Shown here: positions 2,130 through 8,553 of the stretch, in pieces
Position numbering within the stretch: the first letter of the stretch is position 1
Layout of the letters: the number at the start of each line of letters is the position of its first letter
Source: an uncultured Lutibacter sp.
Lineage (GTDB): Bacteria; Bacteroidota; Bacteroidia; Flavobacteriales; Flavobacteriaceae
Assembly: GCF_947493565.1 (NCBI RefSeq)
Contig: NZ_CANLRG010000004.1
Span: forward strand, 62,001-126,000
Direction of reading: 5' to 3'
DNA length: 64,000 bases
Translations under genes and position numbers: made by a program
The notes under the pieces: generated by a model
Databases searched by the model: none
The model's input: the letters and a program-made list of their open reading frames with translations, nothing else
Told to the model about the DNA's origin: nothing

Positions 2130-3798
2130 ATTTTATGTAAGCATCATCATGAACTTGTGCTACAGCTCTACCAGAAGGGTCGTTCATATTTTTAAAACTT
2201 TCATCCCATTCCAATGCTATTTTAGTACTGCAAGCAACTGAAGCTTCTTGAGGAACACTTAATGCTGCTGTATCACTAGGAAAATGTTCTGCAAAAATTG
2301 AGCGATAGTAAAACTCTTCCTTGTTAGTAGGTGTTTGAATTGGAAACTTATATTTTGCATTTGCCAATTGTTCATCAGTTACTTCTGCAGCAACAACTTC
2401 TTTTAAAGTATCAATCCAGCTATACCCTACTCCATCAGAAAATTGTTCTTTTTGCCTCCAGGCAACACTTTCAGGTAAATAGCTTTCAAAAGCTTTTCTA
2501 ATTACCCATTTTTCCATGCGCTCTCCATTAATCATTTTATCTTGTGGGTTTATACGCATTGCAACATCTATAAACTCTTTATCTAAAAATGGTACACGTC
2601 CCTCAATACCCCATGAAGCTAAACTTTTATTTGCTCTTAAACAATCGTACATATGTAGCTTGCTTAATTTTCTAACAGTTTCTTCGTGAAATTCTTCAGC
2701 ATTTGGAGCCTTATGAAAGTACAAATAGCCACCAAACAATTCATCCGCTCCTTCTCCAGAAAGTACCATTTTAATTCCCATAGATTTAATAACTCTTGCC
2801 ATTAAGTACATAGGTGTTGAAGCTCTAATTGTGGTGATATCATAAGTTTCAAGGTTGTAAATTACATCTCTAATAGCATCTAAACCTTCTTGTATGGTAA
2901 ATTTAATTTCATGATGCACCGTTCCTATATGATCTGCTACTTTTTGTGCTGCAGCCAAATCTGGAGACCCCTCCAGTCCAACAGAAAATGAATGTAACTG
3001 TGGCCACCAAGCGGCTTGTGTATCGTCAGATTCTATTCTTTTTGCAGCATATTTTTTAGCAATCGCTGAAGTTACTGAAGAATCTAGTCCTCCTGATAAT
3101 AGCACTCCATAAGGCACATCAGACATTAATTGGCGGTGCACTGCTGCTTCTAAAGCATCGTGTAACTCATCAATACTAGTTTGGTTTTCTTTAACTGCTT
3201 TATACTCCATCCAATCTCGACTGTACCATTTTGTTAATTCTCCATCTTTACTAGACAAGTAATGTCCTGGAGGAAATAATTCAATTTTAGTACAAACACC
3301 TTCCAAAGCCTTTAATTCTGAAGCAACATAAAATGTTCCGTTTTGATCCCATCCTATATACAAAGGAATAATTCCCATGTGGTCTCTAGCTACAAAGTAC
3401 TCATCATTTTCAACATCATACAAAGCAAAACCAAAAATACCATTCATTTCATCAATAAAACTTGCTCCTTTTTGTTGATATAAGGCTAAAATAACTTCAC
3501 AATCTGATTCTGTTTGAAAATTATAAGTTCCTTCAAACTGCTTACGCAATTCTCTATGATTATATATTTCACCATTAGCTGCTAATACTAATTTTTTATT
3601 TTCACTAAATAAAGGTTGTTTTCCAGAAGCTGGGTCAACAATTGCCAAGCGCTCATGCGCTAAAATGGCCTTTTCATCAGCATAAATCCCGCTCCAATCT
3701 GGTCCTCTATGACGAATTTTTTTAGACATTTCTAACAACTGCGGTCTTAATATTTCCGACTTCTCTTTTAAATCAAATGCACAAACTATTCCACACAT
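2128..3798 (-). CDS. asnB: Asparagine synthase B (glutamine-hydrolysing)
   Basis: Makes asparagine from aspartate, ATP and glutamine in the cytoplasm. I start at the ATG at 3798, not the upstream ATG at 3816, because removal of this Met exposes the nucleophilic Cys of MCGIVCAFD, as the class II amidotransferase mechanism needs. Product 556 residues, usual family length. Glutaminase motifs RLAIVD and NGEIYNH lie near residues 50-81; the synthetase half carries the ATP pyrophosphatase loop SGGLDSS (235-241) and SGEGADELFGGY (from 347). It stands alone: leftward, with a possible -7 box CACTTTTG at 3828-3835. Confidence 0.96.
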   Translation of the reverse strand: MCGIVCAFDLKEKSEILRPQLLEMSKKIRHRGPDWSGIYADEKAILAHERLAIVDPASGKQPLFSENKKLVLAANGEIYNHRELRKQFEGTYNFQTESDCEVILALYQQKGASFIDEMNGIFGFALYDVENDEYFVARDHMGIIPLYIGWDQNGTFYVASELKALEGVCTKIELFPPGHYLSSKDGELTKWYSRDWMEYKAVKENQTSIDELHDALEAAVHRQLMSDVPYGVLLSGGLDSSVTSAIAKKYAAKRIESDDTQAAWWPQLHSFSVGLEGSPDLAAAQKVADHIGTVHHEIKFTIQEGLDAIRDVIYNLETYDITTIRASTPMYLMARVIKSMGIKMVLSGEGADELFGGYLYFHKAPNAEEFHEETVRKLSKLHMYDCLRANKSLASWGIEGRVPFLDKEFIDVAMRINPQDKMINGERMEKWVIRKAFESYLPESVAWRQKEQFSDGVGYSWIDTLKEVVAAEVTDEQLANAKYKFPIQTPTNKEEFYYRSIFAEHFPSDTAALSVPQEASVACSTKIALEWDESFKNMNDPSGRAVAQVHDDAYIK

Positions 3799-3957: not shown

Positions 3958-3983
3958 TGAAATTTAACATTGTTTTTTGCGTC
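3958..3983 (+). promoter_or_regulatory. Candidate ECF-type promoter (TGAAAT-N16-CGTC)
   Basis: TGAAAT (3958-3963), a 16-base spacer and CGTC (3980-3983) match the generic ECF sigma pattern TGAAAC-N16-CGTC with one mismatch. It lies about 50 bases upstream of the Cys-rich peptide gene and points at it and the following ECF sigma gene, so it could be autoregulatory. The generic pattern comes from other phyla, and Bacteroidota ECF promoters are poorly characterised, so this is a lead, not proof. Confidence 0.4.
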
Positions 3984-4032
3984 TTTTTATAAGGAATGCT
4001 GTCTAATATATAGAACTTAAAAATTTATAATT

Positions 4033-4134
4033 ATGAAAAATTCTGAATGCACTTGTACTTGTGAATCTTGCAAAAATGGAGAATGTGCTAATTGCACTTG
4101 TGAATCTTGTAACTGTACAAATTGTACTTGTTAA
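4033..4134 (+). CDS. 33-residue Cys-rich peptide (metallothionein-like)
   Basis: ATG at 4033, TAA at 4132-4134. Of 33 residues 11 are Cys (positions 6, 8, 10, 13, 18, 21, 23, 26, 28, 31, 33), arranged as C-x-C and C-x2-C with two similar halves sharing CTCESC. There are no aromatic residues and very few hydrophobic ones, so it is unlikely to fold without metal or disulfides; thiol-rich metal binding is the simplest reading. It sits between a candidate ECF promoter and, after a hairpin, an ECF sigma gene. I do not recognise a named family. A precursor peptide or zinc or copper buffer are alternatives. Coding is supported by the clean start and stop and a non-random Cys pattern. Confidence 0.7.
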   Translation: MKNSECTCTCESCKNGECANCTCESCNCTNCTC

Positions 4135-4140
4135 TAACTA

Positions 4141-4180
4141 AAACCCTATCTTTAATATAAAAATAGGGTTTAAACTTTTT
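4141..4180 (+). terminator. Hairpin between Cys-rich peptide and sigma gene (attenuator candidate)
   Basis: AAACCCTAT (4141-4149) pairs perfectly with ATAGGGTTT (4163-4171); after AAAC comes a run of five T (4176-4180) ending at the sigma ATG. It resembles a weak intrinsic terminator that would let the peptide be made in excess of the sigma factor by partial read-through. Confidence 0.55.
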
Positions 4181-4726
4181 ATGGAAACAACTGTTATTTG
4201 GAAAGAATTTTCTGCCTCTCTTAAATCTTTTATACGGAGTCGTATAAAAGATCGTGATGCTGTAGATGATATATTACAAGAAGTTTTTATTAAAATACAT
4301 TTAAACATCCATAGCCTTAAAAAACAACAAAGTATAAAGTCTTGGATTTTCACAATTGCCAACAACGTTATCATAGATTATTTCAAAAAAAGCAATAAAA
4401 GCTCCAACTTAGAAATTGAAATACCTGTGATAGCTGAAGCTGAAATACACGAAGAACACTCTGCTAAAGACTGTATTTTACCTTTAATTAAAAATTTGCC
4501 CCCTACTTATAAAAAAGCAATTTTTTTAAGTGAAATTAAAGGCTTCAAACAAGCTGAAGTTGCTCAACAATTGAACATTTCATTATCAGGAGCAAAATCT
4601 AAAATTCAACGTGGTAGAAAACTCTTACAACAAGGTTTTATAGATTGCTGTAATTATAAATTAAATGAATTTGGATATTTAATTGGTGAACATAAGAGTA
4701 AAAAAGAGTGTAAGATTTGCTCTTAA
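4181..4726 (+). CDS. ECF RNA polymerase sigma factor, SigZ-like, with Cys-rich tail
   Basis: Directs RNA polymerase to a dedicated promoter class. The 181 residues hold region 2 (about 10-70, with DAVDDILQEVFIKI and SIKSWIFTIANN) and region 4 (about 105-150, with LPPTYKKAIFLSEIKG and the recognition helix around SLSGAKSKIQRGR). After region 4 is a short tail with Cys156, Cys157, Cys177 and Cys180 (CC then C-x2-C), a layout seen in SigZ-annotated factors and able to bind metal or form disulfides. No anti-sigma gene is adjacent, so the tail may be the sensor. It follows the Cys-rich peptide by 46 bases across a hairpin. Confidence 0.85.
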   Translation: METTVIWKEFSASLKSFIRSRIKDRDAVDDILQEVFIKIHLNIHSLKKQQSIKSWIFTIANNVIIDYFKKSNKSSNLEIEIPVIAEAEIHEEHSAKDCILPLIKNLPPTYKKAIFLSEIKGFKQAEVAQQLNISLSGAKSKIQRGRKLLQQGFIDCCNYKLNEFGYLIGEHKSKKECKICS

Positions 4727-5252: not shown

Positions 5253-7190
5253 ATGAAAAACTATGCTTTTAAAGCAATACTACTAGTATTAATAAGTATT
5301 GCGTTATTTTCTTGTGAAAAAAATAATCTACAAAACACTCCAAATGATAAAGAAAAAACCAATTATGTACAAGAAAATTACGATAAAATAGAAACCTCTA
5401 TTACCATGCGTGATGGCATAAAATTGTTTACTTCCATTTATACCCCAAAAGACAAAAGCAAAAAATACCCTATTTTATTACAACGTACGCCTTATAGTGT
5501 TAGGCCTTATGGTGCTGATAAATTTAAAACTAAGATTGCCCCTAACGAACATTTAATGAAAGAAGGAAACATTGTGGTATATCAAGATGTTAGAGGTAGA
5601 TGGATGAGCGAAGGAACTTATGATAATATGCGTGCTTACATTCCAAATAAAAAAGATAGCACCGATGTTGATGAAAGTTCCGATACTTATGATACTATTG
5701 ATTGGCTAGTAAAAAATGTTGAAAACAATAATGGCAACGTAGGAACTTGGGGAATCTCATATCCTGGATTTTATAGTACCTATTCAACTATTGATGCGCA
5801 CCCTGCTTTAAAAGCTGCATCTCCTCAAGCTTGTATTGGTGATTTCTTTTTTGATGATTTTCATCATAACGGTGCCTATCTACTAAGTTATTTTAGAGCA
5901 ACTCCTCTTTTTGGAACTCCAAAAGATACTCCCACAGATAAAGCTTGGTATAAAATTCCTGACCTTAAAACCAAAGACCAGTACCAGTTTTTTTTAGATG
6001 CAGGCCCTTTAAGTAACTTAGACCTCTATTTTGAATATAAAAAATTGGACAACCCAGCTTTAAAAAACAGTGACAATGCAAGTGACTTTTTTTGGAAAGA
6101 ATTAAAAGAACATCCTAATTACGATGAAGTTTGGCAAAGCAAAGGTATTATTCAACATTTAAAAAATATAAAATCTCACGTTGCTACTATGATTGTGGCT
6201 GGTGAGTTTGATGCTGAAGATTTATATGGACCATTAGAAACTTATAAAACCATTGAACACTATAATAAAGATAATTACAATACCATTGTTTTTGGTCCTT
6301 GGAGTCATGGACAATGGGCTAGCACAAAACCTAAAAACAGTGTTGGAAATTATTATTTTGGAGACTCCATATCTATTAAATATCAAAAAGAAATTGAAAC
6401 TAAATTTTTTAATCACTTCTTAAAAGGTACCGGTGATAAAAATACTGGTTTACCAGAAGCATATGTGTATGATACAGGAAAAAAAGAATGGAATACCTAC
6501 AATGTTTGGCCTCCAAAAAATTCTAAAAAACAAACCTTTTATTTAGCTGAAGATCAAAAATTAGCTATTGAAAAAGGAAATGAAAAAGGTATTCAGTTTA
6601 TAAGTAACATTAAAAAACCTGTTCCTTATACAGAAGATATTAAAACAGTATTTACTCCTCGAAAATATATGACCGATGACCAGCGTTTTGCCGCTAGAAG
6701 AAGCGACGTATTAGTTTTTGAAACCGAAGTTTTAGAAAAAGATATGACAATGTGTGGTGACATTTTAGCAAAATTACAAGTGGCAACTACTGGAACCGAT
6801 GCCGATTGGATAGTAAAAGTTATTGATGTGCACCCAGCTGATAGTGAAGAAAATAATAAGGACATGCAAAATCACCTAAAAATGAGTAATTATCATTTAA
6901 TGGTTAGAAGCGAAGTTATGCGAGGAAAATTTAGAAATAGTTTTACATATCCAGAACCTTTTATACCCAACAAAAAAACTGCTGTTGAAATTAAATTACA
7001 AGATGTGCATCATACGTTTAAAAAAGGACATAAATTACAAATACAAGTGCAAAGTACCTGGTTTCCGTTAATAGATTTGAATCCCCAAACCTATGTTGAC
7101 AATATTTTTAAAGCAAAAGCCGAAGATTTTAAAACACAAACACATACTGTTTTTACATCTTCAGCAATTGAATTTACGGTGTTAAAATAA
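5253..7190 (+). CDS. CocE/NonD (S15-type) serine hydrolase, lipoprotein
   Basis: Alpha/beta hydrolase of the X-Pro dipeptidyl-peptidase/alpha-amino-acid ester hydrolase group; it would cleave ester or amide bonds of acylated amino acids or peptides at the cell envelope. The N-terminus is a lipoprotein signal with Cys21 (ALFSC). Nucleophile Ser169 lies in GISYPG (167-172), the acid is around Asp321-Asp324 (GEFDAEDLYG) and the His is His353 (GPWSHGQW). The C-terminal third is the jelly-roll S15 domain. At 645 residues it has the usual length. The substrate cannot be read from sequence. TGTTAACAAATTAAA at 5194-5208 upstream recurs before the gene at the right window edge. Confidence 0.88.
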   Translation: MKNYAFKAILLVLISIALFSCEKNNLQNTPNDKEKTNYVQENYDKIETSITMRDGIKLFTSIYTPKDKSKKYPILLQRTPYSVRPYGADKFKTKIAPNEHLMKEGNIVVYQDVRGRWMSEGTYDNMRAYIPNKKDSTDVDESSDTYDTIDWLVKNVENNNGNVGTWGISYPGFYSTYSTIDAHPALKAASPQACIGDFFFDDFHHNGAYLLSYFRATPLFGTPKDTPTDKAWYKIPDLKTKDQYQFFLDAGPLSNLDLYFEYKKLDNPALKNSDNASDFFWKELKEHPNYDEVWQSKGIIQHLKNIKSHVATMIVAGEFDAEDLYGPLETYKTIEHYNKDNYNTIVFGPWSHGQWASTKPKNSVGNYYFGDSISIKYQKEIETKFFNHFLKGTGDKNTGLPEAYVYDTGKKEWNTYNVWPPKNSKKQTFYLAEDQKLAIEKGNEKGIQFISNIKKPVPYTEDIKTVFTPRKYMTDDQRFAARRSDVLVFETEVLEKDMTMCGDILAKLQVATTGTDADWIVKVIDVHPADSEENNKDMQNHLKMSNYHLMVRSEVMRGKFRNSFTYPEPFIPNKKTAVEIKLQDVHHTFKKGHKLQIQVQSTWFPLIDLNPQTYVDNIFKAKAEDFKTQTHTVFTSSAIEFTVLK

Positions 7191-7218: not shown

Positions 7219-7386
7219 TTAATGCTGCTATTCCAGAGTGATCACTGAGCGGATTCGAAGTGCAGGCAGGAATTCAATCGTTATAAAAATAGATTCCTAC
7301 AAAAGTTTATTTTGACCAAAGATGGAAGGTGAAAATAACAGCATTAACTTAATTCGATTAAACTATAATTGGCTTCGACCCCGCTC
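7219..7386. repeat. REP-like nested inverted repeats
   Basis: Two nested palindromic pairs lie between the hydrolase and sugar dehydrogenase genes. Outer: 7219-7232 against 7334-7347, one mismatch in 14. GAGCGGATTCGAAG (7247-7260) pairs with CTTCGACCCCGCTC (7373-7386), 12 of 14. AGGAAT/ATTCCT pairs lie inside. It is less AT-rich than neighbouring spacers and resembles the ACTGAGCGGA-TCGAAGT intergenic repeats common in Flavobacteriia. No ORF inside. Confidence 0.6.
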
Positions 7387-7419: not shown

Positions 7420-8553
7420 ATGAAATATTCAAATATATTTTTCAGTTTAATAACAGTTCTAATTATTTCTTGTAAAGAAAAACCTTCAGAAAAATTAGCA
7501 CTTCAAACCTTAAACAATAACAAATTTAAATTTGAAGTTGAAACTATTGTTAGTGATATGGATATTCCTTGGAGTATGGCATTTTTACCCGATAATTCTA
7601 TTTTAATTACAGAATTAAAGGGGGAGTTAATTCATTTTAAAAACGGAGTAAAAACCAATATTAAAAATGTACCAGAAGTATATTTTAGAGGCCAAGGTGG
7701 TTTATTAGATATAGAATTAGATCCAAATTATGCCGAAAATGGTTGGTTATATTTATCCTACGCTGCAAATATTGAAAATGATGGAAATGGAGGAAACACA
7801 ACTATAATGAGAGCTAAATTAAAAAACGATGCTTTGGTTGAAACTCAAGTTATCTATAAAGCAACTCCAAATACACAAAGCGGAACCCATTTTGGTTCTC
7901 GTATTGAATTTGATAAAAAAGGCTATTTATATTTTTCAATTGGAGATAGATACAACAGAGATGTTTTACCACAAGATATAACTAAAGAAGCTGGTAAAAT
8001 TTACAGAATAAATAGCGATGGAACAATACCAACAGATAATCCGTTTTACAACACTAAAAATGCTATAAAAGCAATTTATTCTTATGGTCATAGAAATCCG
8101 CAAGGAATGGCAATGCATCCCGAAACTGGAGAAATTTGGGCACACGAACACGGTCCTAAAGGTGGTGATGAAATAAATATTATAAAAGCTGGTAAAAATT
8201 TTGGATGGCCTAAAGCATCTTTTGGAGTTAATTATAGCGGTACAAAATTTACAGATAAGACCTCTATTAAAGGAATGGAAGATCCAATACACCACTGGAC
8301 ACCTTCTATTGCTCCAAGCGGAATGACATTTGTTACTAGTAATAAATACCCAGAATGGAAAGGAAATGTATTGGTAGGTTCGTTAAAATTTCAATATGTT
8401 ACACGATGTGTTATAGAAAACAACAAAGTAGTTAAAGAAGAAAAACTAATAGAAAATATTGGTCGCGTACGTTGTGTACGTCAAGCTCCAGATGGCTATA
8501 TTTATGTTGCTGTTCAAAATTTAGGGATTGTTAGATTAACGCCTTCATCTTAA
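7420..8553 (+). CDS. PQQ-dependent soluble sugar dehydrogenase family lipoprotein
   Basis: Six-bladed beta-propeller of the GDH-B/aldose sugar dehydrogenase (YliI/Asd) family, expected to oxidise sugars with pyrroloquinoline quinone at the envelope. Lipoprotein signal with Cys18 (LIISC). Family motifs: GGLLDIELDPNY, SGTHFGSRIEF, SIGDRYNRD, YSYGHRNPQGMAMHP, the EHGPKGGDEIN active-site loop, and RVRCVRQAPDGYIYV at the end. Length 377 is normal. No pqq biosynthesis genes are in the window, so the cofactor is made elsewhere, imported, or the protein acts differently. Confidence 0.9.
   Translation: MKYSNIFFSLITVLIISCKEKPSEKLALQTLNNNKFKFEVETIVSDMDIPWSMAFLPDNSILITELKGELIHFKNGVKTNIKNVPEVYFRGQGGLLDIELDPNYAENGWLYLSYAANIENDGNGGNTTIMRAKLKNDALVETQVIYKATPNTQSGTHFGSRIEFDKKGYLYFSIGDRYNRDVLPQDITKEAGKIYRINSDGTIPTDNPFYNTKNAIKAIYSYGHRNPQGMAMHPETGEIWAHEHGPKGGDEINIIKAGKNFGWPKASFGVNYSGTKFTDKTSIKGMEDPIHHWTPSIAPSGMTFVTSNKYPEWKGNVLVGSLKFQYVTRCVIENNKVVKEEKLIENIGRVRCVRQAPDGYIYVAVQNLGIVRLTPSS

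Follow-up and report, generated by a model that had tools for sequence, protein, structure and literature searches.

The window analyzed here, the whole stretch of 64 kb, carries on the + strand a short gene coding for a Cys-rich peptide (4033-4134) followed by the gene of a SigZ-like ECF sigma factor (4181-4726). This gene pair is conserved among relatives, together with a promoter-like element before it, a hairpin between both genes, and a set of thiol-bearing residues in the sigma factor. The reading that we prefer, with a probability of roughly 0.6, is that both genes constitute a self-activating metal-buffer operon, in which the sigma factor would sense a metal, drive the expression of a small metallothionein, and be turned down again by feedback. 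That peptide and sigma gene form a real operon we regard as practically certain. The preliminary description of this DNA had reported an ORF of 33 residues and 11 Cys located 46 nt 5' of an ECF sigma gene with a Cys-bearing tail, and both the coordinates and the tail motifs were confirmed. The span that it gave, 3958-4726, does contain the gene pair, but its start is a loose boundary, as the promoter-like element is found at 3978-4005.

The peptide gene and its sigma factor

The peptide gene has 33 codons and its translation is MKNSECTCTCESCKNGECANCTCESCNCTNCTC. It is the sole ATG-initiated ORF of 20 to 80 aa in the 64-kb window with at least 8 Cys and a Cys content of at least 20%, and we rejected a chance ORF, as 20 dinucleotide shuffles gave 0 ORFs of such Cys content. 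Among 103 distinct homologous sequences, both TGT and TGC are used at every Cys column, the pairwise differences at codon positions 1, 2, and 3 are 6.53, 6.39, and 14.17, respectively, and the non-Cys columns have a pN/pS of 0.26. Since these homologues were gathered by their Cys framework, the zero change at the Cys columns is built in, so the evidence for coding consists of codon use and the non-Cys columns only. The reading frame is conserved, and an alignment of 13 peptides shows no variation at the 11 Cys, the start Met, and one Gly.

Peptides of this family are 32 to 36 aa long and 33.1% Cys, dense in CxC and CxxC motifs, with His in 11/85 and an aromatic residue in 9/85. Small size, about one-third of Cys in CxC and CxxC arrangements, and few His or aromatic residues are the composition of metallothioneins, and the peptide shares it in size, Cys share, and scarcity of His and aromatics, while no curated metallothionein model of Pfam or NCBIfam recognizes it. 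The product of ORF 4033-4134 had 0 matches in both databases at an E value of ≤1, and the family is a previously unnamed one without Pfam or NCBIfam match. A PDB search with the peptide returned two matches only, a defensin (E value of 0.57) and another peptide (6.7). A metallothionein of the SmtA type was discarded, with PF02069 matches in 0/8 peptide-carrying genomes, and a known RNA element was rejected too, the window having 0 Rfam matches that reach the gathering scores. Going by composition only, the peptide is very probably metallothionein-like, and it is predicted, with good likelihood, to bind metal.

The sigma gene begins 46 nt after the peptide ORF and codes for a protein of 181 aa that belongs to the SigZ family, as its score with NCBIfam model TIGR02959 is 181.7 bits for a cut-off of 168.65; it falls short of the stricter SigZ model NF007215 (198.4 versus 212). 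ECF regions 2 and 4 are present (PF04542 and PF08281, both over cut-off), and a Foldseek search with the sigma model retrieved, at an E value of ≤0.001, 28 matches that were all ECF sigma factors. The C-terminal tail ends in DCCNYKLNEFGYLIGEHKSKKECKICS and has the spacing CC-x19-C-x2-C. Six residues are candidates for a metal site, H93 and C98 in the linker and C156, C157, C177, and C180 in the tail, and all six are invariant in seven module sigma proteins. Of 85 sigma relatives, 84 have the linker motif H-x3-[DE]-C, all 85 the CC that closes region 4, and 83 the terminal CxxC, which bears out the Cys-bearing tail as a conserved trait.

The AlphaFold model of the sigma factor has ordered domains (mean pLDDT of 82.1, pTM of 0.44). 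Its linker is poor (block means of 40 to 71) and its tail moderate (56 to 80), with short strands, so the proposed thiol site is not resolved in the predicted structure. The bridge residues of the model, 92 (beside H93) and 173, may hint at a contact between linker and tail. Control of the protein by metal through its own thiols seems somewhat more probable than the opposite.

The module is preceded by recQ-like and asnB-like genes on the opposite strand, as read from the sequence, and the first gene 3' of sigma is a DUF423 gene, not an anti-sigma factor. When the nearest genes 3' of the module were inspected in 10 relatives (no Pfam match in 3), we recognized no anti-sigma factor, in agreement with the absence of a neighboring anti-sigma gene noted at the outset. 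We also recognized no metal-transport gene adjoining the module in the window or in the relatives inspected. OsmC-like genes adjoin the module at three other loci (L170, positions 3129-3593, identified with Pfam; L180, 1782-2252, and L193, 1762-2232, both by eye). Farther along the window, an intergenic inverted repeat at 7219-7347, between ORFs 5253-7190 and 7420-8553, has 14-nt arms that are 93% complementary and 101 nt apart, and may be a repeat element.

Distribution of the pair and of other SigZ genes

A sigma search of 149 relatives yielded 30 loci, of which 13, the window included, have the peptide framework; small ORFs at the same 30 loci code for a 14-Cys peptide in L016 and L024 and for a 15-Cys peptide in L027. 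With a peptide profile we obtained 69 matches in 397 Flavobacteriaceae genomes, once per genome and in 47 of 237 genera. Phylum-wide, the same profile matched in only 5 of 395 genomes, all Flavobacteriaceae and the window genome among them, and the peptide was for this reason rejected as a general ECF companion. At 19 remote ECF loci (L219-L238 without L229), no Cys-rich small ORF was found within 1.8 kb.

A sigma profile, scored on up to 8 candidates per genome, detected 119 genes, spread over 109 of the 397 Flavobacteriaceae genomes, at an E value of ≤1e-24, counted from the listing. Their scores split into 52 genes of at least 184 bits and 67 of at most 158 bits, and the border of the sub-clade was chosen after seeing this gap (184 to 158 bits). 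All 52 sub-clade sigma genes found, which include a broken copy in G657 and a contig-split one in G016, have the peptide 6 to 252 nt upstream on the same strand. Conservation of the small ORF beside orthologous sigma genes was the test that the preliminary description had set for itself, and it was passed in 52/52 cases. Similarly, when the 80 best named loci were retrieved by similarity to sigma, 37 had the peptide framework; in these, the peptide starts 110 to 276 nt upstream of sigma, with the exception of L164 (810 nt). The genera involved are Lutibacter, Polaribacter, Tenacibaculum, Winogradskyella, Bizionia, Lacinutrix, Olleya, Mesoflavibacter, Seonamhaeicola, Oceanihabitans, and Arcticiflavibacter, among others. 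Two module loci are labeled Saprospiraceae (L166) and only Bacteroidia (L164), which may be signs of the module outside Flavobacteriaceae or may come from mis-binning.

In the same 397 genomes, we examined the surroundings of the remaining 67 SigZ-like genes for Cys-rich ORFs of ≥8 Cys. Such a mini-protein adjoins 25 of them and none adjoins the other 42. Its start is 101 to 252 nt upstream in 24 cases, of which 22 belong to the 14-Cys type and 2, with 14 and 15 Cys, to a different one; in the remaining case it is located 71 nt downstream. The 14-Cys peptides are a second family (L016, L024, and 20 loci within L239-L274), starting 101 to 164 nt upstream of the sigma genes of a related SigZ clade. 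Among the named loci, other Cys-rich peptides are found upstream in Pontibacter (L207) and Pseudoalteromonas (L213) and downstream in Flammeovirga (L212) and Crocinitomix (L214). Six Cys-rich peptides, including the 14-Cys one of L016 and one of the module type, had no Pfam or NCBIfam match at an E value of ≤10. A quick tree built from 122 SigZ proteins, with the module type sampled every third, places the 29 module rows on one side of a branch (SH-aLRT of 96) and the 21 rows labeled 14-Cys in one 24-row clade (99) together with L207, L270, and L243, the last of which has no peptide. An independent-pairs test on the SigZ tree, with 3 pairs on well-supported branches, gave no support for coevolution of the tail CxxC and the peptide. 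This outcome and the 42 SigZ-like genes without a mini-protein are at odds with a simple account and count against our preferred reading.

For SigZ loci without an upstream peptide, 10 proteins coded downstream were chosen by eye from 16 loci. Arsenite methyltransferase (arsM) was over the cut-off in 4 of the 10 (L013, L019, L248, and L252) and ArsI/CadI in L015, and L297 codes for a serine acetyltransferase EpsC and then a truncated cysteine synthase under the cut-off (cysE-cysK). The permease of L023 was under the cut-offs and one further small protein had no match. A partial arsM, cut by the locus end, is found 1 kb away in L014. The arsM, ArsI/CadI, and cysE-cysK genes, whose functions all concern thiols or metal(loid)s, are a lead from loci picked by eye, suggesting that SigZ may have a role in thiophilic metal(loid) stress more generally.

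A search of plasmids found remote SigZ relatives only, in 16 records, all of <60% identity. A mobilizable Hymenobacter plasmid (L327) has, by eye, a promoter of the SigZ type directly before its SigZ-like gene, with arsC at ca. 2 kb from this gene and Cus/Czc-type efflux genes at ca. 13 kb. A plasmid of Arenibacter algicola (L330, 3471-6160) carries a SigZ-similar gene of the sigma-70 family followed by genes whose annotated products are a thioredoxin family protein, a permease, and an NAD(P)H-dependent oxidoreductase, an order that, by eye, L023 resembles.

Some of these neighborhoods would also fit a redox stimulus, an electrophile or oxidant response in which thiols become disulfides and the peptide acts as a thiol buffer. 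Disulfides are possible in the CC and CxxC pairs, one of the other SigZ genes (L297) stands before cysE-cysK, and the OsmC-like genes mentioned above, whose family includes thiol peroxidases, adjoin the module in some genera. We consider a redox response unlikely in view of the metallothionein-like composition of the peptide, rich in Cys and poor in His and aromatics, and of the arsM and arsI/cadI genes among the other SigZ neighbors.

The peptide is also found on its own. No sub-clade sigma adjoins 17 of the 69 peptide genes (L105, L109, L110, L113, L115, L117, L118, L120-L127, L129, and L130), and 12 of the 17, L105 counted, come from genomes no larger than 2.2 Mb. The full Cys framework is kept by 12/17 of these sigma-less peptides and the promoter pattern described below by 0/17, so the peptide can serve under other control. 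Two genomes show copies in decay. G567 (L105) has no sigma gene left, a drifted promoter-like element, and a peptide lacking three of its Cys. In G657 (L128), sigma is interrupted by two stops and the peptide match begins only at position 12; both cases suggest that the peptide of the operon may not be maintained after sigma loss.

This joint decay is among the points in favor of the metal-buffer operon, and together with the strict genetic coupling of sigma to the peptide it also favors a peptide that regulates the sigma factor, as a mini anti-sigma or a metal-stripping partner in contact with it, and is a buffer only secondarily. The sigma-less copies with their framework and without the promoter pattern speak against such a regulator, as do the peptides of the SigZ relatives, which have other Cys frameworks, so no fixed sigma-peptide interface is conserved. 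Because 17/69 peptide genes have no sigma, an effector is likelier than a regulatory partner, and a primarily regulatory peptide appears quite improbable to us. The proposal of the preliminary description, a self-contained sensor or buffer in which metal or oxidant load on thiols would control sigma, is supported in part, the gene pair being conserved.

Promoter-like element, hairpin, and the proposed circuit

The predicted ECF-type promoter element (3978-4005, + strand) has the form TGCGTCTTTTT-N12-GTCTA and ends 27 nt before the ATG of the peptide, and the consensus upstream of the peptide is TGCRTCTTTTT-N12-GTCTW. A GTCT -10 element is typical of ECF promoters. A pattern in which several bases were fixed and the length could vary by several bases matched an element of exactly 28 nt in 85 of 88 module loci. 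It is also 28 nt, by eye, in the remaining three, as the first base differs in L078 and L086 and the pattern matched three bases too far in L187. For 80 of the 86 loci that were matched, the element ends 24 to 29 nt 5' of the ATG. The 14-Cys relatives have a similar element, TGTATCYTTTT...GTCT, and TGCGTCTTTTT...CGTCT starts 40 to 59 nt before sigma itself in 9 of 96 SigZ loci scanned. From this distribution of the element among loci, we infer that SigZ recognizes it.

The genome of the window (3.1 Mb) has a single pattern match with free spacing, the one at the module. In 14 genomes there were 34 pattern matches, of which 13 belong to the Cys-peptide operon and 21 to other places, with 24 in the reversed control. 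When the spacing was fixed and ≤2 mismatches were tolerated, the window genome gave 20 hits versus 15 in the reversed control, and four genomes gave 55 versus 51. As the hits of the relaxed scans are about as many as those of the reversed control, no further promoter target stands out. A promoter common to both genes under a sigma factor whose main regulon lies elsewhere, the peptide being one small target, has in its favor that diverged targets may escape scans with a fixed consensus and that the relative G027 has extra full matches, both around a second SigZ-like gene and farther away, and it is made very improbable by the single full match in the 3.1-Mb genome and by the near-control number of ≤2-mismatch hits in the four genomes.

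Between both genes (4141-4171, + strand) there is an inverted repeat, AAACCCTAT.../...ATAGGGTTT, followed by AAACTTTTT. Its folding z score against dinucleotide shuffles is -2.96, weaker than in most relatives, and a consensus terminator scan finds the window hairpin terminator-like on the - strand only. The relatives were studied in a set of 85 loci, defined by a stricter sigma-length rule than the promoter set of 88. The gap between the genes is at least 25 nt in 79 of the 85, the other 6 having no room for a hairpin. Among the 79 gaps, 75 have z < -3 against dinucleotide shuffles and 71 a stem of ≥8 pairs, 57 of these with a T-rich end, so that 22/79 are without the combination of such a stem and a T-rich end. 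The position of the hairpin is kept across loci while the sequences differ. It is a probable leaky terminator that would make peptide output larger than sigma output. The promoter before the peptide and the hairpin after it thus suggest self-activation with unequal output, and self-activation of the operon by its sigma factor is, on this arrangement, highly likely.

We can then propose how the two-gene metal-buffer operon would work. The SigZ-like sigma factor, without a partner anti-sigma, would use the thiols of its linker (H-x3-D-C) and tail (CC...CxxC) as a built-in binding site for thiophilic metals or metalloids. Metal loading would be activating, and the loaded sigma factor would take RNA polymerase to TGCRTCTTTTT-N12-GTCTW before its own operon. 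Most transcripts would end at the hairpin after the peptide gene, yielding much peptide and little sigma. The 11-Cys peptide, acting as a small metallothionein, would bind the same metal as the sigma factor and lower its free level, and sigma would fall silent. In a bolder version, the operon would be the smallest complete metal homeostat described so far: its sigma factor would be its own sensor with this operon as sole target, and the peptide, from a new metallothionein family, would reclaim the metal from sigma and thereby act as the anti-sigma. In the same version, the Cys-tailed SigZ clades would be general metal(loid) sigma factors, each driving its own mini-protein or arsenic gene; we offer this version tentatively, as a possibility that we would not favor.

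If the proposal is true, SigZ, whose function we did not find described in the open-licence literature searched, would gain a testable role, families of Cys-rich peptides that Pfam and NCBIfam lack would be added, and there would be a metallothionein driven by a sigma factor instead of being released from a repressor. The prediction of a single target and the fixed promoter make this a readily testable module.

Comparison with known systems

The sigma factor shares with the SigZ family (TIGR02959) a Cys-bearing tail and the CC that closes region 4. The sub-clade differs from the rest of the family in adding the linker motif H-x3-[DE]-C, the GE...DCKxC tail, and the upstream 11-Cys peptide. In the open-licence full-text literature we found no description of SigZ paired with such a peptide, which does not prove its absence.

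The peptide is comparable to SmtA/BmtA (PF02069) and MymT, which are also small Cys-dense metal-binding peptides, this property being a predicted one here; in contrast to them, its gene is paired with a sigma factor and not with a repressor. Bufferins (DUF2282) are small Cys metal-buffering peptides under ECF sigma control, alike in what is predicted for the peptide described here and different in being exported and modified and in their sigma/anti-sigma pair.

Closest in logic are sigma factors that carry their own Cys cluster. CorE and CorE2 of Myxococcus xanthus (ECF44, now ECF238) are described as metal-activated ECF factors with a Cys-rich C-terminal tail and no linked anti-sigma (PMC8999054, PMC3107203), with oxidase and ATPase genes as targets of CorE (PMC10141476) and C-x2-C-x1-C as the core of the tail (PMC9023288). 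The likeness covers a Cys motif in the linker, the Cys-rich tail, and the missing linked anti-sigma, as our sigma gene is flanked by the asnB-like gene and DUF423. Compared with CorE, the sigma factor described here has other Cys spacings, with CC-x19-C-x2-C in place of C-x2-C-x1-C in the tail, has H-x3-D-C in the linker and not CXC (H-x3-[DE]-C in 84/85 relatives), and has a metallothionein-like peptide as predicted target. Because of these spacings and the absence of CXC, we do not file it as CorE-like, which leaves the claim that it may work like CorE unaffected. In OrbS of Burkholderia cenocepacia (ECF243), a C-terminal Cys cluster replaces the anti-sigma factor, and the protein is inhibited by Fe(II) and has a siderophore regulon (PMC9023288). 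OrbS is alike in its on-board C-terminal cluster and different in Cys spacing. CorE/CorE2 and OrbS show that C-terminal Cys clusters can act without a linked anti-sigma factor, and by analogy the tail of the sigma factor described here may do the same.
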